Source: a virus
Virus record (IMG/VR): IMGVR_UViG_3300042938_002732
Coordinates: 1-64,000 of that record
Length of the DNA stretch: 64,000 nt
Strand: one strand, 5' to 3'
The notes beneath the pieces are model-generated. The model was given only the letters and a program-made list of their open reading frames with translations. It was not told the origin of the DNA and did not search any database. A program made the translations under genes and the position numbers. Of the stretch, positions 6,921-26,965 are shown one piece after another (position 1 is the first letter of the stretch; each line of letters starts with the position of its first letter).

Positions 6921-8639
6921 ATGAACTTTCTTGATCGAGCGGTATCTTTTTTTGACCCCGAGGCTGGGGTAAGTCGGGCGCAGGCGCGGGAGCGGTTAAA
7001 GGCATTTGGCTATGATGCCGCTCAGCCTGGCACGAATCGCGGCGGCAGTGGCGGCAGGCAGAAGAACTCCTCCTCCGAGACATGGCGGATGCAGCGGGAT
7101 CGTCTTGTGCTCATGTGGGATGCGCGCGATGTGGTGCGGAATTTTTCGATCCTGCGCGGCATCATTTCGCGCATCGTCCAATACACGGCGGATACGGTTC
7201 AGTATGTTTCTCAAACGGGCGATGAGGAGATCGACTCGATGTATCAGGATTATTTCCATGTGTGGTGCGAGCAGGCGGATATCACGGGCCGTCACCGGCT
7301 CGGGGCTCTCGTTTCCATGGCGATGTGGAGTTTGCTGGTGGATGGCGACCACGGCTGGCACTTGGTGGAGATCGATGAGGGCGGCAAGAAGCAACTCCGC
7401 ATCCAATCCATCGAGGCCGACCGCATCGGGGATCCGAACAATCCGATGAGTCCAGGGAACAACAACGACATCGGCGGCATCATAGTGGACGAGATGGGCA
7501 GGCCGCTCTCCTATCGCATCTTCAAGCGCGAGCGGCGCACGGCATTGTATTCCTTTGAGCGGGAGATTCCTGCCGACCAGTTCATTCACATTTTCGACCC
7601 CATGCGGGTGGATCAATACCGAGGTGTCACGGCGCTCTCGACGGTGATCGCCCCCGCGCGGGATTTGTATGAGGTGTATCACTTTGAGAAGCTCGCCGCC
7701 AAGTGGCAGGTCGGCCATGCGGGATTCATCAAGGTCACAGACCCCACTCGCCGCGATGGCGGCATCTCGGCGTGGAATGGCACTAAGGACAACCGCCCCG
7801 ACTCTCCTGGCACGATGGCGATGGAGGCGGGAAAAATCCAGCGTCTCTCGCAGGGCGAGGACATCCAGTTCGCCCCCGGCACGAACCGCCCGAGCGGAGC
7901 GTTCATGGCGCTGGTGCAGACGATGGTGCGCGAGATCGCCAGCGGGCTGAATATGCCCTACGGGTTCCTCTACGACATGACGGCGTTCTCGGGTCACACG
8001 GGCCGCATCGAGATCGCGCAAGCCATGCGCTCGATCCGCCGCTACCAGAAGCTTCTTAGCGAGAAAGCCCTCGACCCGCTGCGTGATCGGGTGATCGGCC
8101 TCGGCATTTCCATGGGCGAGTTGCCTCCGCATCCGCAGTGGCGCAATGGCCGATGGGGCTTTGGCCGCTCGCTCACAGGCGATTATGGCCACGACACTTC
8201 GGCGAATCTCCAGCTTCTCCAAGCTGGACTCGTCACCGCGAGCGACCTCATCGCCGAGACAGGACAATCTTTCGAGGAAGTGGTGCGCCGCAGCGCCAGC
8301 GAAGTCGCTTACCTGCAACGGGTCGCCACTGAGACAGGTGTGCCGATCGAACTCATCAATCAACGCCTGCCTGGGCCGACTCAAGCCCTCGCCGCCATGG
8401 CCGAGCCGCCACAGCCGCCGCCACCTGGCCTCGTGCCGCAGGGCTTGGATGTGAAGCCGCTCTTGGAGCTTCTGAAAAATGTGGGCGAAGGCATCTTGGA
8501 TCGCGAAAGCGCGATTATCAATTTGATGAACCTGTATGGCGTGGAGCGCAATGCGGCGGAGAAGATGATCCCCGATGGGCCGAAGGAGAAGAAGGGATTG
8601 ACCACAGAGGACACGGAGAACACGGAGGGGGAGAAATGA
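6921..8639 (+). CDS. Portal protein (lambda B-like)
   Basis: The 572-residue product has the features of lambda-type portals. These include an early WDARDVVRNFSILRGIISR segment, a central VRNF/ADRI-type core (IQSIEADRIGDPNNP), the HIFDPMRVDQYRGV loop and the IASGLNMPYGFLYDM segment. A dodecamer of this protein forms the DNA channel at one capsid vertex and binds the terminase. The last residues (TTEDTENTEGEK) are encoded by a copy of the dispersed repeat, so the tail is probably acquired. The stop overlaps the next start (ATGA). Confidence 0.92.
   Translation: MNFLDRAVSFFDPEAGVSRAQARERLKAFGYDAAQPGTNRGGSGGRQKNSSSETWRMQRDRLVLMWDARDVVRNFSILRGIISRIVQYTADTVQYVSQTGDEEIDSMYQDYFHVWCEQADITGRHRLGALVSMAMWSLLVDGDHGWHLVEIDEGGKKQLRIQSIEADRIGDPNNPMSPGNNNDIGGIIVDEMGRPLSYRIFKRERRTALYSFEREIPADQFIHIFDPMRVDQYRGVTALSTVIAPARDLYEVYHFEKLAAKWQVGHAGFIKVTDPTRRDGGISAWNGTKDNRPDSPGTMAMEAGKIQRLSQGEDIQFAPGTNRPSGAFMALVQTMVREIASGLNMPYGFLYDMTAFSGHTGRIEIAQAMRSIRRYQKLLSEKALDPLRDRVIGLGISMGELPPHPQWRNGRWGFGRSLTGDYGHDTSANLQLLQAGLVTASDLIAETGQSFEEVVRRSASEVAYLQRVATETGVPIELINQRLPGPTQALAAMAEPPQPPPPGLVPQGLDVKPLLELLKNVGEGILDRESAIINLMNLYGVERNAAEKMIPDGPKEKKGLTTEDTENTEGEK
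8600..8632 (+). repeat. Dispersed repeat (copy 3), supplies the portal C-terminus
   Basis: GACCACAGAGGACACGGAGAACACGG is translated as TTEDTENTEG. It ends next to the portal stop and the start of the first large cargo gene. Confidence 0.8.
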
Positions 8640-11170
8640 AGGAGTTTTCGGCTTTGCGGAAGCGGATTCGTGTAAGGTGGCATCCTGATGGGTCGGCGCG
8701 TATGACGATCAGGAACCAGCACGGAGGTTTTAATGAGATCGGGCGGATTGATACTACGGATTCGTCTATTGTTGACTGGCAAAAACAGAAACTCGCCACG
8801 CGCGGACAAATAAAACATGTTCAGATTGATCCAAGGTTTCGTGGAATGGGCCTTGCAACAAAAATGTATGGCGAAGCCATGAAGCAAGCTCCGCGCGGTC
8901 GGCTTGTGAGTGACAGCGCTCAATTTGACGGAGGGTATGCGATTTGGAACAGACTTCAGCGAAACAAGGGATATAGGATTCGCGAGAACCCTAAAGCTGA
9001 TGGGGCTGAAGATGGTTTTTTAAGTCGGGATAAGCGGCCTCTCTTCATTGGAAGAATCAATCCTGCGGCCATAAAGCAGAACAACCTCTCCGCGAAGCTG
9101 CGGTTGCAAGAGTTCGCCCGTGGGGAGTATTTGCGGCGGGTGCTTGGTGGTTTTGAGTTGATTCCGGCGCGTGGGGCTTCGGACGCGAAGAGGGGTGCGG
9201 AAAAATTGAGGTATTATCGGAGTAATCCCGCTGGCAAGGAGATTGATCGGGTGCGTAAGGAAATACTTTCAGATCCGAATCTTGCACAAGCCTACCGCTA
9301 CAAGGACACGCCTGGCCTGACGGTGGTTGATGGATATGACGAGGCGTATCATTTCCCTAAAAGATCAAGGGACACGAAAATAGTCATTGATAATCTTAAT
9401 AAGCACGCCACCCGTGGGAAGTCATGGAGCGTGGGTAAGGGTGCGCTTGGGAATCCGCTTGTTCGGGCTAAGGATATTGATCGCATCTTATCCGCGAAGC
9501 TGCGTTTGCGGGAGTTTGCTGGTAAATTTCACCTCCCCTATTCTGTTGCGAAGAAGATCGTAAAGGGAATTAAGGGTCGAGGGGTTTCAATCGTTAGAAT
9601 GCGCAATGAGCCTTCTAATGTGGGATATCGCGGCTGGGGAGATGTTCCTGTAGCTAAAATTGAGAGGGGTTCCAAGAGGTCGCCTTTTGCGGATTTATTG
9701 CATGAGGCAGGGCATGTTGATGCTGGGCACTTGGGTTCCAATGCCAAGATTAGCGAACGGGGCGCGGAATTATTGAAGGGTGCTGAAGGGTATTATCCGC
9801 GCGCTCATCATGAAAGTAGCGATGATATTCTAAATGCGGCTCGCAGTGTTTTATTGAGAGAAAAGCAAGCCAATCGTGCGGCGGGTAAAATCTTAAAAGA
9901 TTCTGGAGCGTCTCCAGAGCAGATTTCAGCATTTGCCCAAGAGCAAAGAAAGAATTTCCGCACCTACAGAAAGAATGCGTGGCGACATGCGGTAGCGGGT
10001 GAAAGAATTAAAAACCCCTCTGCCACGGAATCCAATGTCATGGGGGTTTTGCAGAGGCAAGCGGCGCGGCGCGGGGTAATCCCAAGCGATGGGGCTTTGC
10101 GCTCAGCGAGAGAGTCGGTTCAGCGACAAATCCGCATGAATCCAATCAATCGAGGGCGCGACCCAATATTCGGTAACGAGAGTTTCGGTGTTGATGGATC
10201 GAAAAGCATTTTGCCGCTCACGATTTCCGAAGCAAAAAGGATACACAAAAACACAAGTAAGTTGTGGCGGGTAAGGGAGTTTGCGCGCGGGGATTATGCG
10301 ATTCCTGCGCTGGGGAAGATGCTGCGGGATCGTTCCATGTTGGAGGAGTTTCTGACAGGCAAGCGTGGGCCGAAGATGGGGGATTTGTCTGTTGGGAAGA
10401 TCTACCCAGGGGGTATAATTTCTGCGAGAAGACCTCCTAAAAAATCAGATTTTCACATTTCAGGATGGACTAAGGGGCAGATGCTGGGCACTGAGCCGGT
10501 GGGGTCTCAGAATGCCCGATGGAGAGATGCCCTCATCGAAGAAAGAATTCGCGGGAGAAAAGAGACCTTCAAAAAAAATAGGAGTTCCCTATCTGATGTT
10601 GCCAGGAATGTGCCGTTTCCTCTGGGTCTCACTGCCGAGGAGGCCGCTTGGGCTCAATCTGCTCGAACTGCTGCTCGAAATAATGCTGCCAAGATGTTGC
10701 GCAAGGGGCGGGCTGGCGGCGATGTGTATGAGGACATAGACCGCAAGTTTTTCTCCGCGAAACTGCGCTTGCGGGAATTGGCGCGTGGAGACTACGCGAT
10801 TCCTGCGCTTGGGAAAATGCTACGGGATCGTTCCATGTTGGAGGAGTTTATGACGGGGAAGCGCGGGCCGAAGATGGGGGATTTTAGGGTTGATAAACTA
10901 ACCGGAAGGATGTGGGTTCCGAATTCCGGAGCATGGGAATTGGGAAAAAACAGCGGGCCGTATGTTAAAAAGATTTCAGACACTATAAAAGCATCCCCAA
11001 GCGACTGGCTCCTTAAGTCTAATCATAATCCGGTTATTGCGCCTGCGTTATACAAGCAAATATACAAGCACAATTTGATTTCTCGCCAGCAAGCCAGAAG
11101 CCAGATCGCCAAAATGATCCGCAAGGGTCGGGCGGGTGGCGATGTGTATGAGGAGGTTAATAGGTCATGA
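8636..11170 (+). CDS. Modular cargo polyprotein: GNAT, HExxH and duplicated modules
   Basis: The 844-residue product begins MKEFS. Module 1 (to about residue 150) has a GNAT acetyltransferase signature, DPRFRGMGLATKMY. LQEFA (9104-9118) opens module 2, of unknown function. LREFA (9506-9520) opens a module with LLHEAGHVDAGH (HExxH). VREFA (10271-10285) and LRELA (10769-10783) each open a module that begins RGDYAIPALGKMLRDRS and ends KGRAGGDVYE. These two modules are a tandem duplication with diverged centres. LEEF also occurs in each (10340, 10838). The position right after the portal is where other phages keep capsid-packaged effectors. Functions are inferred. Confidence 0.7.
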   Translation: MKEFSALRKRIRVRWHPDGSARMTIRNQHGGFNEIGRIDTTDSSIVDWQKQKLATRGQIKHVQIDPRFRGMGLATKMYGEAMKQAPRGRLVSDSAQFDGGYAIWNRLQRNKGYRIRENPKADGAEDGFLSRDKRPLFIGRINPAAIKQNNLSAKLRLQEFARGEYLRRVLGGFELIPARGASDAKRGAEKLRYYRSNPAGKEIDRVRKEILSDPNLAQAYRYKDTPGLTVVDGYDEAYHFPKRSRDTKIVIDNLNKHATRGKSWSVGKGALGNPLVRAKDIDRILSAKLRLREFAGKFHLPYSVAKKIVKGIKGRGVSIVRMRNEPSNVGYRGWGDVPVAKIERGSKRSPFADLLHEAGHVDAGHLGSNAKISERGAELLKGAEGYYPRAHHESSDDILNAARSVLLREKQANRAAGKILKDSGASPEQISAFAQEQRKNFRTYRKNAWRHAVAGERIKNPSATESNVMGVLQRQAARRGVIPSDGALRSARESVQRQIRMNPINRGRDPIFGNESFGVDGSKSILPLTISEAKRIHKNTSKLWRVREFARGDYAIPALGKMLRDRSMLEEFLTGKRGPKMGDLSVGKIYPGGIISARRPPKKSDFHISGWTKGQMLGTEPVGSQNARWRDALIEERIRGRKETFKKNRSSLSDVARNVPFPLGLTAEEAAWAQSARTAARNNAAKMLRKGRAGGDVYEDIDRKFFSAKLRLRELARGDYAIPALGKMLRDRSMLEEFMTGKRGPKMGDFRVDKLTGRMWVPNSGAWELGKNSGPYVKKISDTIKASPSDWLLKSNHNPVIAPALYKQIYKHNLISRQQARSQIAKMIRKGRAGGDVYEEVNRS

Positions 11171-11433
11171 GTAGTAAGGCTGGGGAGAATTCTTTGAAGG
11201 GCTCGGGTTGCTTGTCGTATCGGCAGTCTGGGAAGGTGCGGAAGTATCTCACGCAGGAGCAGCGGGAGCAGATTTGGATGGAGGAGCTCAAGCGGGATGT
11301 GGAGCGGGGGTGCGAGTATTTCTGGCGGCAGACGCCCCAGCGCAGGCGGGTGCAGGATAACTATCTTCACGCGCACAAGGGATTTGGTCGGGGAGGGAAT
11401 GATTTTATTTTTGGAAAGAGAAAACCTATATGA
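11167..11433 (+). CDS. Hypothetical 88-residue basic protein
   Basis: The product contains YLTQEQREQIWMEELKRD followed by an Arg-rich segment (QTPQRRRVQ) and ends FIFGKRKPI. It lacks the leader and glycine-zipper segments of its neighbours. It overlaps both flanking genes by 4 bases, so it is translated with the cargo proteins. No family is recognised. Confidence 0.65.
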   Translation: MSSKAGENSLKGSGCLSYRQSGKVRKYLTQEQREQIWMEELKRDVERGCEYFWRQTPQRRRVQDNYLHAHKGFGRGGNDFIFGKRKPI

Positions 11434-14400
11434 GTGCGATCAGAAATGGGCGGTTGAGGCTGTTGACGCGGAGGTTGCTGGGTATGAGGCATGAATTCAA
11501 GTCTTATGATAAGACTGGCGACGAGGAGCGGCGTGATTTTTTGAGGGCAGGAATTGTCGGCGCTGGGCTGACGGCTGCTGGAGGTTTGGCGGGATTGGGG
11601 CTTTATAAGGCGGGAGTGAGTGCGGCGGCGAGGAATGCGGCTCAACTTGGTGGCGAGTTGAATCGCGCCAAGAAATCTCTTAAGGGCATCCGCGACTGGA
11701 AGCTCGGGAAAGCTACAACAGCAAGAGCAACAGCGACTGGGCAGAAATCGGTCTATGAGAAGGCAGCTTCCAAGTTCTACGCGAATGGCGGTGCGTTTGA
11801 TAAGCATGTGAACGCTGTATCCCGAGCGCAAGCCGCCAAGGCAAAGGCAGCGGCTAAGGCGACGAGGGATGCCGCAAAAGCTGCGAAGGAGCAGGCTGCT
11901 CAGGCGCCGCCTCCTCCTACACAAGCCGCTAATGCAACAACGATTCCTGAAGCTATTTTCAAGCCTAAGGCCGCTCCGCTTAAGCCAGCTCGAACCTATA
12001 AAACTTGGGCGCTTGCCAGGAGGGCGCTTAACAATAATGAGATAACTCAAGAGGAATTCGATCTGATGCAATTTTCGGTAGGCCGTCGCGATCTGGCGCG
12101 TATGCGCTACTTCAACCAGCTTCAAACCGACGAGGGGGGCATCCCCCTTACGGGGCGTGTGCCTCGCGATCGCTTCGTGAAGAAGATCCGCGATGAGGAC
12201 TTGGATCGCCGCGATGCAAATATCCTGCGCGCTGGTGGTGCGGGGGCGCTGGCGGGTCTTCTGGCACGTGGCCGGATCGGCGCGGGTAAACGGGCATTGA
12301 TCGGGGCGGGGGCTGGCGGGCTTGGTGTGGTGGGAATACGGCAGATCACGAATAACGACCGCGACATCTACGGCGAGCGCAATCGCGGCAGCAAGCGCGC
12401 GGAGTTGCTCCCCGCCGTGGGCGGACTCGGCGCAGCGGCTTGGCTGGCGGGTAAGCGGCTGAAGGCGTTTGCGAGGAAGTTTAACCACAGAGGACACAGA
12501 GAGCACGGAGGAGGGGTGAAGGAATTTACAAGGTATTGGAACCCATCTATGGGTTGGCCAGCAGAGGCTAATACTCCAGATAAAAAGAGGGGGTGGCTTA
12601 AAGGGTATATACGAAGAAGGCAGTTAGCAAAGGCAGGCATATTCCCAAAGCCGCGCGCTGTTGAAATCACTTCAGGCTATGATGTAAAAACAGGCAAGAA
12701 TCTTTCCTCCCGTCTGCGCGGAGTGAAGAACTTTGACGACTACCGGCTCTACTATTTCAAGGGGCGCAATACGGGGATCGCGGCGAAGAGTGTCGAGGAG
12801 GCTCGCTCGAAAAAGAAGCGCGGCGGCGATGAGTTGGTGGCCGTGCGCACACCGAGCGATTCCGAGAAAAGTCAGATGGCACGTGGCGTGTGGGTTCGCA
12901 CTCGGCGCGATGGCAAGTCGCCCGATCAGTCCCGCTACGGCAAGGGGCGTGGGCAGGGTCCGGCGCGGAAGAGCTTATCCGCGAGGCTGCGCGTCAGATT
13001 TTTCGAGAAGCGGGATCGCCGTGAGAAGCGGGAGTTGAACCCCTATGTGGGGGCGGCTCTCTCGGGCGGCGTGAGTGGGGCGGGGCTCGGGGCATTGTCA
13101 TGGCTAAAGCGTGGCACTTCTGTGGCTTCGGCTGGAGCGGCGGCAGCTAAATTGGGCGCGCTGAGTGCGGGTGTCGTTGGCGGCGGGGCTTTGATCGGGA
13201 GTCGCCTCGTGGGTGATCCTCGTAAGGAGGAGGGTGCGCCGTTTATGAAGCGTGTGGCTTTAGGTGGGGCGATAACCGGGGCTTTGGTCGGTGGAGCAGG
13301 CGGTCTTTTGCTCCGCAATACCAAGCTGGTGCGGGATGCCGCAAAAACATGGCGCCCAGCAAAATGGATCATCGATTCTCCGGCTCTCGGGGCTGGTGCT
13401 CTTGGGGCTGCGGGCGGGGCTGTGGTCGGAGCCGCGCAGGGGGCCGATGAGGGGCAGCAGGTTGACTCGATACGCAATCTCCGAAAGGACATAAAGCAAA
13501 AGAATTTTTCCCGACTTATGGAGTTTCGCGCATTCCCCGCACTCGCGGCCAAGCAGGTATGGAAGACTGATCCGGCTCTGCGGGCGGATTTCGCAAAGCG
13601 TGTCGTCGCAAAGGTGAAGGGGGCCGTGGCCGCGAATAAAAAGCAATACGGGGTCAAGGAGTTCCAAGTCTCCCCGCTCAACGTCGAGTCGATGGCTCAG
13701 ACGAAGGAGCGGCGTTCCACCGAAAGGGCGAATTTTCTGAGGGGTATCGGCGCAGCAGCGGCTGTGGGCCTTGCAGGCTTTGGCGGCATCCACATGGGAC
13801 GCATGATGGGTAAGGCACAAGTGCGTGCGGCCAAGAGCGCGGCCAAGGCCGCCGAGTCCGATACGGAGTGGATGAAGATCCGGGCGGACAGGTATCAGGG
13901 TCAGGCGGAGGTGCAACGCCGGAGGGCTGATAATGCTGAACGCCGGTGGTATCGAGAAAATGACTCGACTTCTGGTAGTGCCAGCAGTGGGGCGTCGGCT
14001 TCTGGTAGTGCTAAGGCCAGCAGCGGGTCGGCTTCTGGTAGCGCGAAAGCCAGCAGCGGGTCGAGTTCTGGCTTCGATTGGGAAGATTTATTCCGCACAG
14101 GCGGTAGAAAAAAATCCTACGACGATGACTATGTGCGCCGCAGCCAGGAGGCAGGGCGGCAGAATCGGCAGTCCAGTGCGGGGAGCAATCCCGGAGCGAG
14201 TGGCAAGCCAGGGGCTCAAGGCGTAAAGAATCCCCACGCAGGCACTCCTAAGGCCGAAGCGTGGGAAAAATGGCACTCTATGGATCGTATGGCAAAAGAA
14301 TCCCCACATGAGGGCGAGCGTATGAACGCCGCCATGGCGCGAGACAAGTGGAAGAAACGCTACAATCTGGCTCGCAAGCTTCGTGGCTTGAAGATGTTTG

Positions 14401-15392
14401 GCCGCGATGACCAGCCTCGCTATCGGGAGAGCAAGGCATGGGCGGACCCGATCATGGGGTGGATTCGCGGCGATGATTTAGTGGATAAGGATGGCGCTAA
14501 GTGGAGCCCCTCCTCGCCACAGCTTGTGAATGCGATGCACAACAAGGCGCGTGGCATTCGTGTGAATGTGCAGCGCGGGTCTGGGCTGGCGGGCGATACC
14601 ACGGCGGTGCTCCAGGGCAAGGATCGTGAGCGCGATGCCAGTGGCCGTATCAAGAAGCGCGAGTGGGAGAAGGCGTGGTTCCGCAATGCCGTGACTACGG
14701 CAGGGCTCACCGTCGCTGGCTTGGCTGGCGCGGGGGCATGGCGCTATGGGCGTATGAACCCCGCTTCCACATTGGGGAAATTTGTAACAAACACAGAGTC
14801 TGGTGTCCGCAAGACTAAAGACGATCTCAAGCGCGGCCTTGGTGGATTGATGAAGGGGGCCGATGACCTGACGGGGAAGAAGAATCTGGTGGCTAAGATC
14901 CTTTCCGCCAAGTTGCAGCGTTTGCGGGAATTTGATCTCTTCGCCAGAGAATCGGGCTGGGATGTGCGCGATCCTCGCGGCAAGTCGGCCCGTGTGTATG
15001 CACCAGGGAGCCGGACTCGTGTGCGGCGTGAAAAATACTGGCACGAAAAGACCGAGAACCAACGGAAAATCATGATCGCCGCAGGTGTCGGCGCGGCAGC
15101 TATCGGCGGGCTTGGCGGCGTGGCAGCCTATCGGCTCGCCAAGGGGAAATCGCTGGTTCCGAGCTTTATGCTCAAGAAGTCACCGCAGACTGCTGCGGCT
15201 GCAAAGAGGCAGCTTTCCCCCGAAGAAATGAAGGCTAACACGGATGCCATGTCCAAGATGGCCAAAGATCAGGCTGCGCAGCGGCAGGCTGAAACGGCGG
15301 CAGCGTGGGCGAAGAGACAAGCAGAAGCTGCGCGCTTGAATAAGAAAAAAATCGCTCATCCGAACTGGCATCATGGCGGGACTGCCGCCTAA
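11430..15392 (+). CDS. Giant modular polyprotein with repeated glycine-zipper segments
   Basis: The 1320-residue product is a string of Ala/Gly-rich hydrophobic segments (for example AGLTAAGGLAGLGLY, VGAALSGGVSGAGLGALS, GGAITGALVGGAGGLLL, AAGVGAAAIGGLGGVAAY) with basic flanks. Sites of the [LV]-x-E-F type lie at 12516 (VKEFT), 13515 (LMEFR), 13653 (VKEFQ) and 14922 (SAKLQRLREFD). A degenerate copy, SARLRVRFFE, lies near 12975. A Ser/Gly/Ala low-complexity stretch lies near residues 845-875. I infer that processing would release several small membrane-active peptides, perhaps helping DNA cross the envelope. A structural scaffold role cannot be excluded. Confidence 0.65.
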   Translation: MSAIRNGRLRLLTRRLLGMRHEFKSYDKTGDEERRDFLRAGIVGAGLTAAGGLAGLGLYKAGVSAAARNAAQLGGELNRAKKSLKGIRDWKLGKATTARATATGQKSVYEKAASKFYANGGAFDKHVNAVSRAQAAKAKAAAKATRDAAKAAKEQAAQAPPPPTQAANATTIPEAIFKPKAAPLKPARTYKTWALARRALNNNEITQEEFDLMQFSVGRRDLARMRYFNQLQTDEGGIPLTGRVPRDRFVKKIRDEDLDRRDANILRAGGAGALAGLLARGRIGAGKRALIGAGAGGLGVVGIRQITNNDRDIYGERNRGSKRAELLPAVGGLGAAAWLAGKRLKAFARKFNHRGHREHGGGVKEFTRYWNPSMGWPAEANTPDKKRGWLKGYIRRRQLAKAGIFPKPRAVEITSGYDVKTGKNLSSRLRGVKNFDDYRLYYFKGRNTGIAAKSVEEARSKKKRGGDELVAVRTPSDSEKSQMARGVWVRTRRDGKSPDQSRYGKGRGQGPARKSLSARLRVRFFEKRDRREKRELNPYVGAALSGGVSGAGLGALSWLKRGTSVASAGAAAAKLGALSAGVVGGGALIGSRLVGDPRKEEGAPFMKRVALGGAITGALVGGAGGLLLRNTKLVRDAAKTWRPAKWIIDSPALGAGALGAAGGAVVGAAQGADEGQQVDSIRNLRKDIKQKNFSRLMEFRAFPALAAKQVWKTDPALRADFAKRVVAKVKGAVAANKKQYGVKEFQVSPLNVESMAQTKERRSTERANFLRGIGAAAAVGLAGFGGIHMGRMMGKAQVRAAKSAAKAAESDTEWMKIRADRYQGQAEVQRRRADNAERRWYRENDSTSGSASSGASASGSAKASSGSASGSAKASSGSSSGFDWEDLFRTGGRKKSYDDDYVRRSQEAGRQNRQSSAGSNPGASGKPGAQGVKNPHAGTPKAEAWEKWHSMDRMAKESPHEGERMNAAMARDKWKKRYNLARKLRGLKMFGRDDQPRYRESKAWADPIMGWIRGDDLVDKDGAKWSPSSPQLVNAMHNKARGIRVNVQRGSGLAGDTTAVLQGKDRERDASGRIKKREWEKAWFRNAVTTAGLTVAGLAGAGAWRYGRMNPASTLGKFVTNTESGVRKTKDDLKRGLGGLMKGADDLTGKKNLVAKILSAKLQRLREFDLFARESGWDVRDPRGKSARVYAPGSRTRVRREKYWHEKTENQRKIMIAAGVGAAAIGGLGGVAAYRLAKGKSLVPSFMLKKSPQTAAAAKRQLSPEEMKANTDAMSKMAKDQAAQRQAETAAAWAKRQAEAARLNKKKIAHPNWHHGGTAA
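12483..12515 (+). repeat. Dispersed repeat (copy 4), in frame inside gene 11430
   Basis: AACCACAGAGGACACAGAGAGCACGG is translated as NHRGHREHGGG, directly before the VKEFT site. Confidence 0.8.
13966..14070 (+). repeat. Ser/Gly/Ala low-complexity tandem repeat
   Basis: The units TCTGGTAGTG and CCAGCAGCGGG alternate, encoding SGSASSGASASGSAKASSG-type sequence inside gene 11430. It is probably a flexible linker and prone to slippage. Confidence 0.7.
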
Positions 15393-15398: not shown

Positions 15399-18317
15399 AT
15401 GAACGACTCAAGACCAAGAAACAACCAAGGCCAATTCGCCTCCGATCAGATGAGCGGCGTAGATGCCAATACCACTTCAGCGGCTTACAATCCCCAAATC
15501 ATCGAGGCCCGTAAGGCGAGTCTTGTTGAGAAGCTGCGCCGTGCGATCGGGCTGCGCCGTGGCGTGGAGGAGACGGTGCCGCAGCAGCAGCAACTCTCCG
15601 CGAAGCTCCGGCTGCGGGAGTTGGCTCAGCGACAGATTATCGACGCACGGGCGCAAGAAGATCCGGCTTTTAATCGCGGAGGAAGTTTGCTTCTTGCGGG
15701 TGGGGTTGGAATTTTGGGAAATGCGGCTGCTGCGGCGGCAGCGCACGGAGTCATGGGGGCGAAAAAGCAGCAGGGGTTGGATTTTTTTGGGCAGCCTCGT
15801 GGCTCGGAGATGAAGCCGATGATGGCGTTTGGCAAGACGACAGAAGAAGCCGATGAGAAGCTTCGCAGGGCTACAGAAGAGGTGAATGTGCGTAACCGTA
15901 AGGTGCAGCGCGAGTATCTGCGTTCCGATCCCGCTGCGCGGCGTAGCGAGGTGCTTGATAGATTTGCTCGCAGGAAGGGGTATGACATCGCTGTTGGTGA
16001 TCCAGGTATCGCTCCCAAGGGGTGGGCTGGTAGGTCGAGGGGTATATTCCAACGAGGGCACGATGCTCCTGATTTTATAAGGGCGCATGAGGCGGGGCAT
16101 GTGGCTCAGAATCTCGGCGGCAAAAATCTTCCTTTAACAAAAATATCCCGACAGGCCTTCATGCTTGCTCCTCTGGGGGCGACTTCCGCTCTTGTGAATA
16201 AGGACAGGTCGAACGACAAGGTCGCGACGGGTATCGCCGCTGCGGGGACTCTGGCTGCGTTGCCGACATTGCATAACGAGGTGGATGCCTCAGTGCGTGG
16301 CTATAAGGTCATGCGTAAGCTCGGCTCAAGCCGGATGCGTGCGGCGGGTGCATTTGTAGGAGTGCCTACCTATGCCACTATCGCCGCCATGCCAGCATTG
16401 GGCTGGGGTGCGCGAAAGCTCCGGCAGGCTCGCTCGGAGAAAAAGGAGCCCAAGCAACTCTCCGCGAAGCTCCGGCTGCGTGAGTTGGCTCGCGTGGCCA
16501 CCGCTCGCGATGCGGGGCAAGTGCCTGCAGAGCCGAGACAGGCTGGCAAAGATTTTCGCAATGCAGCCATAGGGGTCGGCGCAGTCGGGGCTGGCGGCGG
16601 GGTGGCTTATGCCGGTTGGCACAGGGCGCAGGCCGATAAGAGTGTGCGGGCGCTGGCGGATGATGCGTTGCAGACCGCTGAGGCTCGCAAGGCCGAGCGC
16701 GCGGCGCGGATGGCCAAGGCCAAAGGTGTGGGAAGTTGGTTCAAAAAAGCAGCGTCTAAAATGTTTGAAGAAGATATGAAAAATACAAATAAACTACGGC
16801 TGCGGGAGTTGGCCCGCGTCGCGGCTCAACCTTATCCCGAAGAGGAGCGCAAGGGTGGCCTCGGCAAGGTGGGCGCGATAGGCTTGGGGCTCGGCTTGGG
16901 TATCGGCGGCGGTGTCGCTGGCGCTCGGTATCTACGCCCTATTTTGAAAAGAAATATCGGGCGGGCGGCAGAGGGGATTTTTGGTGTTTCTGATGCGGCT
17001 AAGCAGGCGATTCCAAAGATGGCCGCTGAGGTCGAGAATACGGCAAAGTCCGTGCAGAGTGCCGTATTGCAGGCTTCGCAGAATATTGATGATGCCACGG
17101 TGATTCCCCGCACGGCTGGAAAGGTTTTCAAATCAGAAGTCCTCCCGAGGGCTTGGAATGTCATGAACCCCGGCAAGCGCTGGAAAGAGATCCGGGGTGG
17201 GTTTGAGGCAGGAATGGCGGAGGGTGTTCTTCGGGGGAAATATGTAGATCGTATCCAGCGGCGTGCTGCCGCGCGAGGAGTGTCGCAGACGGGTATGAAA
17301 GGGGTTAGGCAGCAGGCAAGCCTGAAACGAGCCGCCATCGAGAACATTCCTTCGGGAACCGTGCCGAACGCTTCGCAAGCATGGAGGCCCAGTTGGGCTC
17401 GTGTCGCTCCAGAGCGCGTGAAGATGGCGGGGCCAAAGGCTGGGGCCAAACTTTACTCGGCCAAGCTGCGTTTGCGCGAGCTGGCCGAGGTGTCTTCGGG
17501 GCTGAGAGAATTTGCGGAAGAAAAACAACCGCTTTCCCTCAAGCAGAAGCTCGGTATCGCGGCGGGCGTGGGCACGGCGGCGGTGGGGGCGACGCTCATG
17601 CCAGCGGCGGGCAAGATGTTCCGTATCGCCACGCGCGATATGGCGCATGAGACATTGACGGGATGGGCGAAGAAGCGCGGCCTGCGTTCATTTATCAAGC
17701 CTCCCAAGAGCGATCCGAATCGGGATGGTCGGTTTGTTGCCGACTACATCGAGGGGGCGCAGTCGATTTTGAACAAGGGAATACAAGGCAAGATCGCTGG
17801 CAAGATTCTCCGGCACGCCAAGGCGAATCCGAATGGCAAGGTAGCCAAGGTGGTGGGCGGTGAGTTGGGAGACTACGGCGTGAGTCACTACGCAAGATTC
17901 CGCTCAGGGCCGAGAGAGGCGATGAAGCATTGGGACAGCGAGGTGGGTGATCTGAAGAACCATATCGGCAAGCGGGACGGCATTTTGGATGCGGATAACA
18001 ATTTCGTGCCTGGAGCCAATCCCGCGAAGGTTAATAATGTCGTGAAGCGTCGGGAACAGATGGCGGCTGGACGCAAGGCTGTGGATGACGAGATCAGCGA
18101 GCAGCTCTGGCACCACGGCAAGAGCGAGAGCGAGGCGTTGCGCCATGTGGCGGAGAACACAAAAAACCCCGCTGCCTTGCAGTATTTTAAGAATCTGGCG
18201 CATCACAACAAGGGGGCGGCTTCCAAGTATGCCAAAATTTCTCTGGCTGCTCCTGGATTGGTGGTTGCCGGTGGAACCACGGCGGGGCTTTCGGTGCGTA
18301 GAAAGGAAAAACAATGA
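15399..18317 (+). CDS. Modular cargo polyprotein with HExxH and membrane modules
   Basis: The 972-residue product has five leader-type sites: LRELA at 15612, 16476, 16800 and 17472, and LREFA at 17502. The first three full copies read SAKLRLRELA or NKLRLRELA. The module after the first site contains FIRAHEAGHVAQNLG (HExxH) and glycine-zipper segments. Later modules each start, soon after the site, with an Ala/Gly membrane-type stretch (AIGVGAVGAGGGVAYAG, GLGLGLGIGGGVAGARY, GIAAGVGTAAVGATLMP). The regular site-plus-hydrophobic layout is the clearest example of the modular design. Enzyme substrate and targets are unknown. Confidence 0.7.
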   Translation: MNDSRPRNNQGQFASDQMSGVDANTTSAAYNPQIIEARKASLVEKLRRAIGLRRGVEETVPQQQQLSAKLRLRELAQRQIIDARAQEDPAFNRGGSLLLAGGVGILGNAAAAAAAHGVMGAKKQQGLDFFGQPRGSEMKPMMAFGKTTEEADEKLRRATEEVNVRNRKVQREYLRSDPAARRSEVLDRFARRKGYDIAVGDPGIAPKGWAGRSRGIFQRGHDAPDFIRAHEAGHVAQNLGGKNLPLTKISRQAFMLAPLGATSALVNKDRSNDKVATGIAAAGTLAALPTLHNEVDASVRGYKVMRKLGSSRMRAAGAFVGVPTYATIAAMPALGWGARKLRQARSEKKEPKQLSAKLRLRELARVATARDAGQVPAEPRQAGKDFRNAAIGVGAVGAGGGVAYAGWHRAQADKSVRALADDALQTAEARKAERAARMAKAKGVGSWFKKAASKMFEEDMKNTNKLRLRELARVAAQPYPEEERKGGLGKVGAIGLGLGLGIGGGVAGARYLRPILKRNIGRAAEGIFGVSDAAKQAIPKMAAEVENTAKSVQSAVLQASQNIDDATVIPRTAGKVFKSEVLPRAWNVMNPGKRWKEIRGGFEAGMAEGVLRGKYVDRIQRRAAARGVSQTGMKGVRQQASLKRAAIENIPSGTVPNASQAWRPSWARVAPERVKMAGPKAGAKLYSAKLRLRELAEVSSGLREFAEEKQPLSLKQKLGIAAGVGTAAVGATLMPAAGKMFRIATRDMAHETLTGWAKKRGLRSFIKPPKSDPNRDGRFVADYIEGAQSILNKGIQGKIAGKILRHAKANPNGKVAKVVGGELGDYGVSHYARFRSGPREAMKHWDSEVGDLKNHIGKRDGILDADNNFVPGANPAKVNNVVKRREQMAAGRKAVDDEISEQLWHHGKSESEALRHVAENTKNPAALQYFKNLAHHNKGAASKYAKISLAAPGLVVAGGTTAGLSVRRKEKQ

Positions 18318-19441
18318 ACCTTCTCTTGAGACTTCATGAATTGGCGGCGAGGAGCCAGCGCGAGGTAGATCGGCGAGATGCTCTGAATACGGCCAGCGGG
18401 GTCGCGGGTGCCGGATTAGTCGGGGCGGGCGGCGTGGCTGCCTATCGTGCGATCAATCCCAGTGTGGCGATCACCTACGGCAACACGAATGCCTATCGCG
18501 GACATCTCAGCCATGCCGAGGATGTGAAAAAAATCTTGGACGGCGAAGGCATCAAATCCACGATGCGCAATGCCGACGCGCGCGGGTTCTGGGGAGCACA
18601 GAAGGGGGCTGTCGAAGTGAATACGGGGTATGGGCCTAACGTGATTGGCGGCGGCCGCGTCAAATTCAAGCAGGACTATACGGCGGTGACAGATTCTGTC
18701 CTGCCCGTGATGGCAACTGCGATGAGCAAGCCAATCAAGGCTCGCAAGAAGACGGTGGGTGTCTACGGCGGTGGTGGCGGGGTGGATGTAGGCAACAAGG
18801 TTCCCCATCTGGCTAAGGTTCATGAGGATTTTGATGCCATCCATCTTTACGCAGGGCCTAAAGATGGAAAGAAAATCGGATACGCTGGCGGGGGCTTCGA
18901 GGAGGCTCGTGCGGCTGTGGCTGAGTTGGCAAAAACGAATCCTGGTGCGGCTGCGAAATTCAAAATCCATGGGGCTATGAGTCGCAAGGCGATTAAAAAT
19001 GCGGTGCGGTCGCATGCGGTAAATGTTGGAAATTCAGGGGCGGGGACGTTGCATGAGGTAGCAGCAAGCCCGCGCCCCAGCGTTATTTGGCAGTCGGGTG
19101 CGCATCCGTCTCCTCATTTTGGGATTAATGAGGGTATGGTGCATCGGCGGGGGATGCGGGTGGCGCGCGGGGCAAGTAGTATTGAGCGGAATGAGGATGC
19201 GGTTGCACACCTTCGGCACATTTTACGCGACCCGGCGCATGCGGTGGAACGGCAAAAAGAAGTCGCCGAGGGCATGATTCGCGATGGGGCTAAGAGTCGT
19301 TCGGGCTTTGTGGATGAAGTGAAGTCGGCTCTCAAGCGGAGTCGTGGGCGCAATACGATCGCGGCAGCTGGGCTGGGTGGTGTCGGCCTCTTGCTCGGGG
19401 CCAATGCCCTTCGCTCCCGAAATTCCCAGAACAAAAAATAA
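18314..19441 (+). CDS. Single-module cargo protein with LHELA leader
   Basis: The 375-residue product starts MNLLLRLHELAARSQR (LHELA at 18332-18346), so here the leader is at the natural N-terminus. A glycine-rich hydrophobic segment follows (GVAGAGLVGAGGVAAY). The rest is a globular alpha/beta domain of unknown family (contains YGPNVIGGGRVKF and WQSGAHPSPHFG), ending in another hydrophobic segment and a basic tail. The gene shows what one unfused module looks like. It overlaps the previous stop by 4 bases. Confidence 0.65.
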   Translation: MNLLLRLHELAARSQREVDRRDALNTASGVAGAGLVGAGGVAAYRAINPSVAITYGNTNAYRGHLSHAEDVKKILDGEGIKSTMRNADARGFWGAQKGAVEVNTGYGPNVIGGGRVKFKQDYTAVTDSVLPVMATAMSKPIKARKKTVGVYGGGGGVDVGNKVPHLAKVHEDFDAIHLYAGPKDGKKIGYAGGGFEEARAAVAELAKTNPGAAAKFKIHGAMSRKAIKNAVRSHAVNVGNSGAGTLHEVAASPRPSVIWQSGAHPSPHFGINEGMVHRRGMRVARGASSIERNEDAVAHLRHILRDPAHAVERQKEVAEGMIRDGAKSRSGFVDEVKSALKRSRGRNTIAAAGLGGVGLLLGANALRSRNSQNKK

Positions 19442-20959: not shown

Positions 20960-20963
20960 CGAT

Positions 20964-21207: not shown

Positions 21208-21223
21208 GCCTGTGCCGTGTGGC

Positions 21224-22546
21224 ATGGCGACGACAGCGAATCTCAAAGAATTTTACACCCCCTATAACTCCGCGCAGAAGGTGGACGCCCTCAATGGCGT
21301 GATTCACGGCGTGGCGGTGATCACCAGCGGGGTGAAGGCGCGCGGGCACGATCTGGAGGTCGATGCGAAGACGCTCAACCAGATCAAGGAGTGCGCTGAA
21401 AAACTCGGCACGGTGCCGGTAAAGTGGAACCACCGCACAGGGGCGGATGCCGTGAACGGATTTCTGGATAATTTCCGCATCGAGGACGCAAAGCTCCTCG
21501 GCGACTGGCATCTTCTCAAGAGCCACGACCGCTTTGCCCAAGCCATCGAAATGGCCGAGCGCATGCCAGGGAACGTGGGCCTCTCAGCGGCATTCATGGG
21601 CGAGGACGAGATGGAGAACGGGCAAAAGAAAGCCCGCTGCTCAGAGCTGATCAGCGTCGATCTGGTGGCAAATCCCGCCGCGAACCCCTCCGGCCTTTTT
21701 GAAGCCAAGCTGCCTGCCGCTCCCACCGAATTCGCGGGGCCGGTTGACACGCCGAGCAAGGAGCGAACCTTTATGGACAACCAAAACAACCAAGCAAGTG
21801 CCGCCGCTGAGCCCTCCATGGGCGATCTTCTGGCTGCTATCCAAAACCTCACTGAGCGCGTCCAAGCGCAAGATGAGACTATCGCGGCTCTTTCGCAAGA
21901 GGGTGCCGAAAACGACAACGAAATTTCCCTGGAAGAGATCATGGATCTGACCCAGGAGGATATCGCCGCCCTCGTCCAAGCTGGCGAGATCAGCGAAGAG
22001 GATGCTGCTGGCATCAATGCCTACCAAGCCGAAGTCATCGCAGCCCTGGATGCGGACGAAGCTGGCGAACAAGGCGAAGACAGTGAACCCGCTGGCGAAC
22101 TCGCCGGTGCTGGCGCAGGAGTCGAAAGCTCCACGGGCGGCTCCGAGGGCACTGCTCTCTCCGCTCTGCAAAATCAAGTCCGTGAACTCTCGGCCCGCTT
22201 CGAGCGCGAAGACGCCGCCGCTGAGAACAACGAGATCTCACATTATTTCTCAACCATCGAAGGCAATATGACCCAACTCGCCGCCGAGCGCGCCGAGCTG
22301 AAGGAATTCGCCGACAACCTCGCCGCCGAAAACGACGCGCTTCGCAATGCACTCAAAACTGGCATCCGCCCGCTGGCCTTTAGCGCCGAGGGAGCAGCCA
22401 TCAGTGGCAAGAACGGGGAACTCCATGAGTTCGAAGCCCGTGTGCAGAACCACAAGGGCCAAGGCAAGACGCACGCCCAGGCCGTGATGCTCGCCCACAA
22501 GGAAAATCCTGACGCGCACCAAGATTGGATCCGCAACCAGGGCTAA
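21224..22546 (+). CDS. Prohead protease fused to scaffold
   Basis: The 440-residue product starts MATTANLKEFYTPYN. An S78/HK97-like prohead serine protease domain (to about residue 170) follows, with VPVKWNHRTG (His near 70), NVGLSAAF (Ser near 121) and SVDLVANPAAN. The C-terminal half is acidic, coiled-coil and scaffold-like. LKEF (21242-21253), LKEFA (22298-22312) and LHEFE (22421-22435) match the cargo sites, which suggests self-processing. Proteases of this class mature the prohead from inside and then degrade themselves. It lies directly before the capsid genes. Confidence 0.85.
   Translation: MATTANLKEFYTPYNSAQKVDALNGVIHGVAVITSGVKARGHDLEVDAKTLNQIKECAEKLGTVPVKWNHRTGADAVNGFLDNFRIEDAKLLGDWHLLKSHDRFAQAIEMAERMPGNVGLSAAFMGEDEMENGQKKARCSELISVDLVANPAANPSGLFEAKLPAAPTEFAGPVDTPSKERTFMDNQNNQASAAAEPSMGDLLAAIQNLTERVQAQDETIAALSQEGAENDNEISLEEIMDLTQEDIAALVQAGEISEEDAAGINAYQAEVIAALDADEAGEQGEDSEPAGELAGAGAGVESSTGGSEGTALSALQNQVRELSARFEREDAAAENNEISHYFSTIEGNMTQLAAERAELKEFADNLAAENDALRNALKTGIRPLAFSAEGAAISGKNGELHEFEARVQNHKGQGKTHAQAVMLAHKENPDAHQDWIRNQG
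21773..22546 (+). CDS. Nested scaffold protein (internal in-frame start)
   Basis: AAGGAG at 21758-21763 lies 9 nt before an in-frame ATG at 21773. This would give a 257-residue scaffold lacking the protease domain, beginning MDNQNNQASAAAEPSMG. The layout copies the lambda C/Nu3 and similar nested protease-scaffold genes. The product is acidic and coiled coil, and it keeps two of the LxEF sites. The evidence is the ribosome site and the domain boundary only. Confidence 0.6.
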   Translation: MDNQNNQASAAAEPSMGDLLAAIQNLTERVQAQDETIAALSQEGAENDNEISLEEIMDLTQEDIAALVQAGEISEEDAAGINAYQAEVIAALDADEAGEQGEDSEPAGELAGAGAGVESSTGGSEGTALSALQNQVRELSARFEREDAAAENNEISHYFSTIEGNMTQLAAERAELKEFADNLAAENDALRNALKTGIRPLAFSAEGAAISGKNGELHEFEARVQNHKGQGKTHAQAVMLAHKENPDAHQDWIRNQG

Positions 22547-22569
22547 TTCAACCAAAGGAAAAAAATACG

Positions 22570-22958: not shown

Positions 22959-23915
22959 ATGGCATACAATACTTCAGACTCCGTTCCACGGCAGGACATC
23001 TCCACTCTACTCATGGAAGCCGTCCACCAGGAAAAACACTTCGTCGCCTCCAGCCTCCTGCCCGTTTACGGCAGCGAGCGTGAGGTCGGACGCTATCCGA
23101 AATTCCGCATCGGCAAGGGCGAACTCCTCAAGAAAGAGAGCCAAAAGCGCGGAGCCACCGGCACCTACAACGAATCAGAAGAGCAATTCGAGTGGGACTC
23201 CTACCAGACCGCTGAATACGGGCACGAAAAACGCGTGGACGATGTCGTTCGCAAACAAATGCGCGACTTTTTCGACTCCGATATGGTGACTGCGAAGTTC
23301 TGCATGAATAAACTCATGCTCGACTACGAAGTGGAAGCCGCCACTGCGATCATGGATCCTTCCGTGTTCACGGCATCGGCCGCTGGCACAGCCTACACCG
23401 AAGCGAATCTCGCGACGATGGACTTCCCCGCCGACCTGAATGCAACGATCGAAGCGCTCACGCTCAACGGCGAAGAACCCAACACAATGGTGCTCAGCCT
23501 CTCGGTCTACAATCGCCTGAAGCGCTCCAAGCTGCTCCAGACCTACCTCTACGGCCACCTGAACACAACCCAGGGCGGATCGAACATTACTCCCACCCTC
23601 GTCGCCGAGGCCTTTGGCATCCCGAATATCGTGATCGCCAAGAAGTCCTACGACAGCGGCATCAAGGGCAAGACCAGTGTCGTTCCCGTGTGGGGCAACA
23701 GCTACATCTGGCTTGGCGAAGTGCAAGGGGGCGACTTCATGAACGGCGGCTGCGGCCGCACGATCATCTGGGATGCTGACTCCGAAGGCGGACTCTTCAC
23801 CACCGATCAATACCGCGACGAACCTCGCCGTGGAGACAAGATCCGCGTGCGCAGCAATCGCGTCATCAAGATCGTGAACCCGAACTCTGGCCGACTCATC
23901 GGAACCGGACTCTAA
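22959..23915 (+). CDS. Major capsid protein
   Basis: The 318-residue product sits after protease, scaffold and decoration genes and before a terminator, the standard place of the major capsid gene. It has the layout of HK97-fold capsid proteins: extended N-arm, long helix (ADLNATIEALTLNGEEPN), and a C-terminal beta region (GRTIIWDADSEGGLFTTDQY). There is no long delta domain. LLMEAV near residue 18 is the only LxE site near the N-terminus. Confidence 0.85.
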   Translation: MAYNTSDSVPRQDISTLLMEAVHQEKHFVASSLLPVYGSEREVGRYPKFRIGKGELLKKESQKRGATGTYNESEEQFEWDSYQTAEYGHEKRVDDVVRKQMRDFFDSDMVTAKFCMNKLMLDYEVEAATAIMDPSVFTASAAGTAYTEANLATMDFPADLNATIEALTLNGEEPNTMVLSLSVYNRLKRSKLLQTYLYGHLNTTQGGSNITPTLVAEAFGIPNIVIAKKSYDSGIKGKTSVVPVWGNSYIWLGEVQGGDFMNGGCGRTIIWDADSEGGLFTTDQYRDEPRRGDKIRVRSNRVIKIVNPNSGRLIGTGL

Positions 23916-23929: not shown

Positions 23930-23976
23930 GAGGAAGGATGAAGTAGGAAACTGCTGAATCCTTCCTCTTTTTTTTT
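23930..23976 (+). terminator. Intrinsic terminator after major capsid gene
   Basis: GAGGAAGGAT (23930-23939) pairs with ATCCTTCCTC (23958-23967), followed by nine T (23968-23976). It should limit read-through from the capsid gene into the next cargo gene. Confidence 0.85.
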
Positions 23977-23989
23977 GAAAGGAATTTTT

Positions 23990-24883
23990 ATGATGAACCG
24001 CAGAGACCAGGAGATGTTATCTCCTATTTCAGAATTTAAGAGATCGGCTCGGGAGAGCGAAGCAGCGTTTTTAGATCGCCTCCAGCGTGCTGGCATGCAG
24101 GAAAAAATCCGCATGGATAGTGCCAGGCAGAGGTTGCATGACCAGAGTTATGCATATCCGGCAGCGGGCCTCGGTGCGGGTGCAGGACTCGGCGCGGGCG
24201 CATTGGCGACATTGCCCTTTATTAAGAAGCTCCCTAAGGGGGGGCGTGGCGCAGGAATCCCATTGGCAGTAGGGATGGGGCTATCTGGAAGTCTTATTGG
24301 CGCGCTTGGCGGAATGGAAGTCGGCGGGCGGATTCGTAAGAATAAAGACAAAAATCTCTCCGCAAATCTCAAGCCTGCTCTCCGCGAGTTGGCTGCTCGT
24401 AGTGAGCAGATCACGGAATTCGCCCTGGTGCGGGATGCCAGTGGTCGCTATGTCGAGGTCGAGGAAGGCGGCGGGGGGTTCCCTGTCGGTGGAGCGATCA
24501 AGGCTGGTGTCGGCGCTGCCGCTCTCGGTGGAGCAGGCTACGGAGCCTATCGCGGCCATAAGTCGGTGATGGGCCAGTTTGGAACTTTCGGGCCAATGGA
24601 GGCTGGTAAAAACCGCGTTGTCGAAGCCTACAAAGGTGCTGGCGCTGCGGGTTGGAGCGCCGCTAAGACCGGCGGGCAGGCTGGCCTCGATTCCTTCAGA
24701 GCTGCTGGGCAGGGGGCGATGAATTCGGCTCAAGCCGCCGGAGCTGCTGTCGGGTCTGCTGCTCAGACCGCTGCTGCTGGGGTCGGGAATGCTGCCCAAT
24801 CTGGCATGAACACCGCTAAGAAATCTGGCCTTGGTAGACGCATTCGTGGCGCGCTCGTTGGAGCCGCCCGCTGGATGAAATAA
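23990..24883 (+). CDS. Cargo-type protein with SANLKPALRELA leader
   Basis: The 297-residue product starts at ATG 23990 after GAAAGGA. It has three processing-like sites: ISEFK (24026-24040) near the N-terminus, SANLKPALRELA (LRELA 24380-24394) and ITEFA (24410-24424). Each is followed by Ala/Gly membrane-type sequence (GLGAGAGLGAGALATLPF, GGAIKAGVGAAALGGAGY). The C-terminal 80 residues are Ala/Gly/Gln repeats with a basic end. It belongs to the same system as the genes before the protease but uses a second leader subtype. Confidence 0.65.
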   Translation: MMNRRDQEMLSPISEFKRSARESEAAFLDRLQRAGMQEKIRMDSARQRLHDQSYAYPAAGLGAGAGLGAGALATLPFIKKLPKGGRGAGIPLAVGMGLSGSLIGALGGMEVGGRIRKNKDKNLSANLKPALRELAARSEQITEFALVRDASGRYVEVEEGGGGFPVGGAIKAGVGAAALGGAGYGAYRGHKSVMGQFGTFGPMEAGKNRVVEAYKGAGAAGWSAAKTGGQAGLDSFRAAGQGAMNSAQAAGAAVGSAAQTAAAGVGNAAQSGMNTAKKSGLGRRIRGALVGAARWMK

Positions 24884-25018: not shown

Positions 25019-26965
25019 ATGAAAAAACTGCACATTCCTTTGAAGGGTCATCGTTGGCATGGGAGCTCTGATGAGTCTTTGAGATATATTATGAAAGATG
25101 CGGATGAGGCTCGCCAGGCTGTAAGATCGCATGGGACTCTCCAAGGAGCCCAGGCCGCCCTCAAGTATGAGGATCAAATCAATGATGCCTCCACAATTCT
25201 TGGCTGGCGCCGACGGAATCCAAGTTGGCAGAAGCCAGTAAACCTTTCCGCCAACCTCAAGCCCGCCTTGCGCGAGCTGGCGGCCAGTAGTGAACAAATA
25301 AGCCCTACTGAAGCACGCAAGAGAATGCTCAGATACAACCTGCAAAAGTCGATTGATAAAAGCGGCGATGCCATGACGACGCCTGGCCTGTTGCTTGGAG
25401 GTATCACTGGAGCTGGTATCGCAGCTCGCCGAGGAAATGTTCGCGGCGCTCTTGCTGGTGCCGCCATCGGCGCTCCTCTCGGTATGGTGGGATTGCGTAT
25501 GACGGGGCGCTTGGAGGAAAAGCGTCGGTTAGCCGGGATGCTGCAGCCAACGGAAAAGAAGCTCTCTGCTTTTCATGGGAAGCTTCGCGAATTTGCAGGC
25601 GGGTATATGAACACTTCGCAGGGGGTCGTGAAGGAGGAGAGCGTGGGCGGTCACTTGAGGCGTCATGCAGGGGCTTATGTCGGAACGGCGCTGGCCCCTG
25701 TGCTGGGAACTGGAATCGGCGCGCTGATCGATGCCGCGCGCAAAAGGTCGAACTTGATCAAGACTTCCGATGAAAGCGTGGTGTCGGCAAGGACTGCAGC
25801 GGCGCTGGGTGGCCGTGAACGGCTCATGTCCGCCAACCTCAAGCCCGCCTTGCGCGAGCTGGCTTTGGTAAGGGATGCCAATGGGCAGCTTGTCGAAGAT
25901 GGGAATAATGGAGGCAGCGGGTTTAAGACGGCTGCTAAGGTCGGGCTTGGCGCTGCTGGAGTTGCTGGCGGGGCTGTGCTTGGAACGAGATATTATCACG
26001 CAAACAAGGCCGTTCAGGAAGCGGGCGGCTGGAGAAAAAATTGGTCTGATCTTTCAAAAATGAGTCAAGCTGGTGACGCCCAGGGGATGATGGATTGGTC
26101 TAAAAACATAAGCGCCACCGCTCAAAACAGTGCTCGGCAGGGATGGATGGGGAAGCTGGGCAAGGTCGGAAATGTCTTAACAAAATTCTCAGCCAACCTC
26201 AAGCCTGCCTTGCGCGAGCTTGCTGCTCGCAGTGGGCGGATCTTGGAGTTTGGCGATGGCGAGGCCAATGAAGCGGTGATTGCGGCTTTGAAGGCTGTGG
26301 CGAGTGCGGATGAGTCGCCAGCGCAGCGGTCGATGCTGCTCAAGCAGGGGCTCATCGAGATGGTGAAGGGCCAAGTGGTCATCACCGAGCGCGGCTACGA
26401 GATGATGCAGAAGGCAGGCGTGCCGCCGAAACTGACTCCCGAGGAACGCCGCGAGGAAATCGCGGAGTCAAGCGGGGCGAAGCGGGAGTTTGCGCGGGGG
26501 GATTATCTCTTGAAAGCAAGGAAGTGGGCATCAAATGAAGCGCTTATGGGGAGGATGCCTTTGACGCGAGGGAGTTCTCTCAACCCTTTTGCGCCGATGC
26601 CTCCAGCGCCAATTCGTAAGGGGGGCACGCAAAAGAGGGCTGCTGCTTGGCTGCGCAGCGTGAAGAAGGAGCTTTCGAGGATTGAGTTTGCGCGGGGGGA
26701 TTATGCGATTCCGGCGCTGAAGAAGATTTATCGGAATGGAGGTCCCTTGCGAGGGCTGAAAAGCGGGCGTGTCGGCGTAGAGTCATCTCTGCGCGGGGAC
26801 CCGGTTGGCATTCTAAAAGATCGCGCCGATGCCAAATTCGCCTCGCGCATTGACCCGGCAGGTGAACTTCACGGTGCGGGTCATCACATGACAGTAAACC
26901 GCAAGTGGGCCGCAGCAACTATTCGGGATGTTCGTAGCTTGCGTCCTGAATGGCTGCGAGCGTAA
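25019..26965 (+). CDS. Modular cargo polyprotein, SANLKPALRELA subtype
   Basis: The 648-residue product has three copies of SANLKPALRELA (LRELA at 25268, 25850 and 26210). It also has LREFA (25583), ILEFG (26240), KREFA (26480) and RIEFA (26678). The segments between carry Ala/Gly hydrophobic stretches (LLLGGITGAGIAARRG, VGTALAPVLGTGIGALI, VGLGAAGVAGGAVLGT) or short globular pieces. The last sites lead into RGDYLLKARKW and RGDYAIPALKK, which echo the duplicated modules of gene 8636. The start codon abuts the tRNA terminator, so the transcript source is unclear. Confidence 0.65.
   Translation: MKKLHIPLKGHRWHGSSDESLRYIMKDADEARQAVRSHGTLQGAQAALKYEDQINDASTILGWRRRNPSWQKPVNLSANLKPALRELAASSEQISPTEARKRMLRYNLQKSIDKSGDAMTTPGLLLGGITGAGIAARRGNVRGALAGAAIGAPLGMVGLRMTGRLEEKRRLAGMLQPTEKKLSAFHGKLREFAGGYMNTSQGVVKEESVGGHLRRHAGAYVGTALAPVLGTGIGALIDAARKRSNLIKTSDESVVSARTAAALGGRERLMSANLKPALRELALVRDANGQLVEDGNNGGSGFKTAAKVGLGAAGVAGGAVLGTRYYHANKAVQEAGGWRKNWSDLSKMSQAGDAQGMMDWSKNISATAQNSARQGWMGKLGKVGNVLTKFSANLKPALRELAARSGRILEFGDGEANEAVIAALKAVASADESPAQRSMLLKQGLIEMVKGQVVITERGYEMMQKAGVPPKLTPEERREEIAESSGAKREFARGDYLLKARKWASNEALMGRMPLTRGSSLNPFAPMPPAPIRKGGTQKRAAAWLRSVKKELSRIEFARGDYAIPALKKIYRNGGPLRGLKSGRVGVESSLRGDPVGILKDRADAKFASRIDPAGELHGAGHHMTVNRKWAAATIRDVRSLRPEWLRA

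Follow-up and report, generated by a model that had tools for sequence, protein, structure and literature searches.

Does one enzyme cut the scaffold of this phage, the large proteins encoded beside it and perhaps itself? The question arises because a short peptide recurs in a predicted prohead protease-scaffold gene and in the large open reading frames (ORFs) on both sides of it, here called cargo. The window is a stretch of 64,000 nucleotides, part of a 95,362-base IMG/VR virus record, and its gene order is portal (6921-8639), large cargo ORFs, protease-scaffold, small protein, major capsid protein, further cargo ORFs. Related sequences are found in uncultured viral contigs and in MAGs of Spartobacteria, Verrucomicrobiales and Planctomycetia, so that a verrucomicrobial host is likely. 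The features of the protease-scaffold gene and the capsid gene are as follows.

21224..22546, plus strand: protease-scaffold ORF, 440 aa (translation, AF2 models, fold match to T4 gp21, 5jbl), laid out as flexible N-terminus (1-15), protease core (about 16-151), disordered linker (about 152-198), coiled-coil scaffold (about 199-379) and C-terminal helical domain (398-438)
21242..21253, plus strand: LKEF, residues 7-10, candidate N-terminal self-cleavage site (LKE-9), outside the modelled core
21431..21433, plus strand: His70 in the motif KWNHRTG, invariant among 19 homologues, candidate catalytic residue
21584..21586, plus strand: Ser121 in the motif GLSAAF, invariant among 19 homologues, candidate nucleophile
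21773..22546, plus strand: possible scaffold protein of 257 aa with an internal start at M184, running to the end
22178..22192, plus strand: VRELS, residues 319-323, in the coiled coil, resembling cargo LRELAARSER
22298..22312, plus strand: LKEFA, residues 359-363, in the coiled coil
22421..22435, plus strand: LHEFE, residues 400-404, at the start of the conserved C-terminal helix, a less secure cut site
22959..23915, plus strand: major capsid protein (PHROG 1005, E 9.9e-33)

The nature of the enzyme is indicated mainly by its predicted fold. A domain-only AF2 model of the protease built with 19 diverse homologues (pLDDT 73.5, pTM 0.67) has a confident core at residues 16-151, with low confidence for residues 1-15, which include LKEF, and for the linker past 152. 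AF2 with 11 close homologues modelled the protease part poorly (pLDDT 50) and gave a long helix at 307-379 and the helical C-terminal domain at 398-438. In Foldseek searches with the protease model, the top PDB match is T4 gp21 (5jbl; E 6.3e-4, TM 0.52-0.56), herpesvirus assembly proteases rank after it, and many of the named proteins among the matching predicted viral structures are prohead proteases. The likeness to T4 gp21 is one of fold, without detected sequence-level similarity: searches of Pfam and NCBIfam gave no sequence-level match to any protease family, a PDB sequence-profile search with the protease found nothing relevant, and matches to PHROG 976 (head maturation protease) are weak, occurring in 13 of 19 family members with a best E of 0.0062. 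The neighbourhood, with portal, fused scaffold and capsid, is that of a gp21-type protease. On the strength of the models, the ORF is best read as a capsid maturation protease with the T4-gp21/assemblin fold and a fused coiled-coil scaffold, which supports the earlier proposal, in a preliminary description of the locus, of a prohead protease fused to its scaffold.

The scaffold is likely also to be made as a separate product from M184, since a Met lies right behind the protease domain in all 22 sequences examined and GTTGAC lies upstream in most of them. Here M184 is preceded by AAGGAG at 21758-21763, 9 bases upstream, and by GTTGAC at 21743-21748.

The GTTGAC hexamer precedes the protease start as well as this internal Met. 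An ATG follows 12-19 bases downstream in 18 of its 26 plus-strand copies in the window, the highest such ratio of all hexamers with at least 12 copies there; copies a short way upstream of start codons lie at 234, 4258, 4739, 6898, 11462, 21202, 21743, 27309, 27777, 29377, 30204, 33826, 38579, 42747, 46762 and 53233, among others. It may be a late promoter or a translation element. The start region of the portal gene is nearly duplicated, at 6688-6730 and 6898-6940 (GTTGACT...GTATGAACTTTCTTG), about 210 bases apart.

Within the protease-scaffold, the sites listed in the preliminary description (LKEF at residues 7-10, LKEFA and LHEFE; 21242, 22298 and 22421) are exact in the translation of 21224-22546, and a fourth of the same type, VRELS, had been overlooked. 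The strict form [LIVM]xEF occurs three times against 0.28 expected from residue shuffles (P=0.004) and [LIVM]xE[FL] four times against 0.99 (P=0.0145), with the mirror motif at one against 1.03. For a single protein rich in Glu and Leu, this excess is above chance and modest. The form LxEL is compatible with coiled-coil heptads, which counts against reading it as a cut site. When the scaffold parts of 15 homologues are pooled, there are 39 sites against 10.8 expected, about 3.6-fold, though these sequences are related and not independent; the mirror motif in the same pool gives 15 against 10.7.

The cargo is strongly enriched in the motif, and its sites include those listed here.

5295..6692, plus strand: cargo ORF with LREFA, LRELA and LVEFS
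8636..11170, plus strand: cargo ORF starting MKEFS, with LQEFA, LREFA, VREFA, LEEFL, LRELA and LEEFM
11430..15392, plus strand: cargo ORF of 1320 aa, with VKEFT, LMEFR, VKEFQ and LREFD
15399..18317, plus strand: cargo ORF with four (LSAK)LRLRELA sites and a tandem LRELA-LREFA pair
18314..19441, plus strand: cargo ORF beginning MNLLLRLHELA
23975..24883, plus strand: cargo ORF downstream of the capsid gene, with tandem LRELA-ITEFA
25019..26965, plus strand: cargo ORF with LRELA (three), LREFA and ILEFG

Eight cargo ORFs together hold 30 [LIVM]xE[FL] sites against 5.0 expected (a number reached in none of 300 shuffles) and one mirror motif, and the 86 other predicted ORFs stand at chance level (35 against 38.5). 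The sites take the form (LSAK)LRLRE[FL]A or (LSAN)LKPALRELAARSxxIxEFA, and they recur in relatives whose cargo is shuffled. An HMM trained on cargo sites only places the protease ORF first among the non-cargo ORFs of the genome, with matches at its three scaffold sites; the E for the full sequence is 0.017, and the individual sites score weakly. The earlier suggestion that the sites link the protease to cargo genes on both sides is supported by this profile and by the enrichment in cargo. The sites also mark the borders of modules. Where homology between cargo proteins of different phages ends, a site lies within 20 aa at 30% of left ends (13% at random) and 35% of right ends (14%), figures that are partly inflated because the conserved motif is itself alignable and extends the alignments.

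Large size is a feature of these proteins, which reach 1320 aa here, with an open frame of 1879 aa in one relative. Their domain content is mostly unrecognised in a Pfam scan. By eye, HExxH-like motifs (RHEIVH, HEHGH, HEAGH) are seen in the cargo modules 4756-5298, 5295-6692, 8636-11170 and 15399-18317, and in the cargo of 11430-26965 the site is followed closely, in many modules, by a Gly/Ala-rich stretch that resembles a membrane helix. Such stretches would fit ejected membrane-active proteins. A tRNA-Met (CAT) gene at 24892-24962 separates two of the cargo ORFs downstream of the capsid gene.

How the sites are conserved bears on which of them the enzyme might use. At the N-terminus, F10 is nearly invariant, and E9 of LKEF is kept in 8 of 14 aligned sequences, Bacillus phage Finn included; about half of the lineages lack Glu9, namely L017, L026, L028, L033, L034, L040 and L041. 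In the C-terminal helix, F403 and V407 are nearly constant, but several lineages have D, L or A in place of E402. Relatives of the A1 set show LTELS, LTEFS or LKEL where this protein has LKEFA. Motif conservation was set aside as a proof of function, the scaffold sites being conserved no more than the scaffold average. The preliminary description took all of its sites to be the recognition sequence of the protease. The specificity of gp21 argues for this; LKEF and LHEFE are less secure than was thought, because the N-terminal Glu is lost in about half of the lineages and the conserved helix keeps its F and V but not always its E. VRELS and LKEFA, which lie in the coiled-coil scaffold, are the stronger candidates for substrate sites, with VRELS the best scaffold site.

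The comparison with T4 is the closest at hand. T4 gp21 cleaves behind the Glu of L/I-X-E. One such cut is near its own residue 9, where it has LIE-9; in the preactive structure its N-terminus blocks the active site. It also cuts the scaffold into many pieces (PMC9026906, PMC9958956). In T4 (gp21, the gp22 scaffold, IP/Alt cargo), as here, sites of the L-x-E type lie in the protease N-terminus, the scaffold and the cargo; the N-terminal Glu is at residue 9 in both, and the internal start in the T4 protease gene, Met45, has a possible counterpart in M184. LKE-9 is accordingly a good analogue of LIE-9, but no universal one. In contrast to T4, protease and scaffold are here a single polypeptide, P1' is F or L, and the cargo has many internal sites where T4 cargo has one N-terminal propeptide. 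In the jumbo phages phiKZ and SPN3US, the gp21-related proteases gp175 and gp245 cut many head and ejected proteins, and themselves, after a short motif ending in Glu; in SPN3US this motif is A-X-E, and the identified propeptides are N-terminal except in the protease itself (PMC9026906, PMC10052503). The scaffold/head maturation protease of Bacillus phages Finn and Curly (Andromedavirus) gives a weak tblastn match across protease and scaffold. The distant Finn protein, gp13, begins LKEFE, is 23% identical to the protease-scaffold here and has one LxE[FL] site only.

By analogy with T4 and SPN3US, from which the cut position, the timing and the ejection are taken (PMC9026906, PMC9958956, PMC10052503), a course of events can be proposed. 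The gp21-like protease would become active once the procapsid has closed, and would cut after the Glu of [LIVM]-x-E/[FL]-[AS], at the slash. The scaffold would be chopped at VRELS, LKEFA and possibly LHEFE, its pieces leaving the head. At the repeated sites in the cargo ORFs, a polyprotein-like cargo would be split into modules, which would remain inside the head, probably to be ejected. Self-cleavage at the N-terminus is plausible: the first nine residues, ending in LKE-9, may come off autocatalytically and so free the active site, a step that has been proposed for T4 gp21. The sequence pattern suggests one enzyme that cuts scaffold, cargo and perhaps itself, and it is probable that this is a T4-like maturation protease with the consensus [LIV]-x-E/[FL]-[AS], acting on its own scaffold and on polyprotein-like cargo.

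The main competing explanation is that the motif is chiefly a docking or capsid-targeting helix, a scaffold-like amphipathic helix placed in the cargo for co-assembly, with any cleavage occurring elsewhere. The scaffold sequence LSALQNQVRELSARFER is similar to the cargo sequence LSANLKPALRELAARSER, the scaffold sites lie in predicted helices, and close pairs of cargo sites have a 10-residue spacing in 17 of 27 cases, with the same pair in the scaffolds of L016, L017 and L028. However, the core of the motif is merely L-x-E-[FL]-[AS], with Glu at P1 like the T4 sites, module borders coincide with the sites, where cutting makes sense, and the same cluster encodes a protease, so that a role in targeting to the exclusion of cutting seems unlikely. 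In T4, the residues for targeting and those for processing lie together in a peptide of ten residues (PMC9026906, PMC9958956), and here too both functions may be true.

It is less likely still that coiled-coil composition and structural roles for F10 and F403 account for the matches in the protease-scaffold, the cargo motif alone being functional. Those two residues are indeed conserved even where the Glu is not, the sites are only as conserved as the scaffold around them, and the P-value for the single protein is modest, but the mirror motif is not enriched, the cargo-trained HMM gives this ORF the first rank, and the pooled scaffolds show an excess. The idea that a DNA repeat has spread through the cargo genes and is simply read in frame, without selection on the peptide, has very little in its favour. 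A GAGGACACGGAGAACACGGAGG-type repeat does lie immediately 5' of two KEF sites in the window, at 8600 and 12483, but most sites have none, and between copies of SAKLRLRE[FL]A about half of the codons differ, mostly by synonymous changes (partly by construction, the copies having been picked by peptide), so that they are not recent DNA copies. Copies of an AACCACAGAGGACACAGAGAACACGGAGG-type repeat lie at 8600-8628, 12483-12511 and 6849-6886 (minus strand); in two cases a KEF site follows immediately, and the translated NHRGHREHGG precedes sites also in relatives L001-L004. This repeat may promote module shuffling.

The cargo invites comparison with the polyvalent proteins of phages and conjugative elements, which are very large, modular and mosaic, lie in virion-gene neighbourhoods, and for which processing by assemblin-like peptidases has been suggested (PMC5512222). 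The cargo ORFs likewise encode large multidomain proteins with shuffled modules in a virion neighbourhood, and their breakpoints fall at the sites. Of the polyvalent hub domains (zincin MPTase, ART, GNAT), the traces here are a weak GNAT match at the N-terminus of the 8636-11170 ORF, below the Pfam cut-off (E 0.0013), and the HExxH-like motifs seen by eye. What sets the present proteins apart is that a repeated protease-like site bounds their modules, and that this site has its match in the neighbouring protease-scaffold. The components have known counterparts, namely proteases of the gp21 type, L-x-E sites and modular virion cargo akin to the polyvalent proteins (PMC5512222); the new element is their combination, in which protease and scaffold are fused and large, shuffled cargo polyproteins contain repeats of the same site. 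In the open-licence literature searched, no title or abstract besides that of the polyvalent-protein paper points to a prohead protease that cuts a polyprotein cargo in phages, and the combination is nowhere described.

The arrangement could be carried one step further, to a plug-in cargo, although this is offered tentatively and is somewhat less likely than not to hold. A single peptide, common to scaffold and cargo, would combine a packaging helix with a protease site; modules bearing it would be shuffled into polyproteins, and the head protease would later separate many ejected proteins. If these proposals are right, there would be a sequence rule that predicts the packaged virion proteins of these uncultured phages together with their cut points, and the peptide would amount to a portable tag to load and release proteins within a phage head. 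Head proteolysis of the T4 type would then extend to polyprotein cargo in phages that are probably those of Verrucomicrobia.
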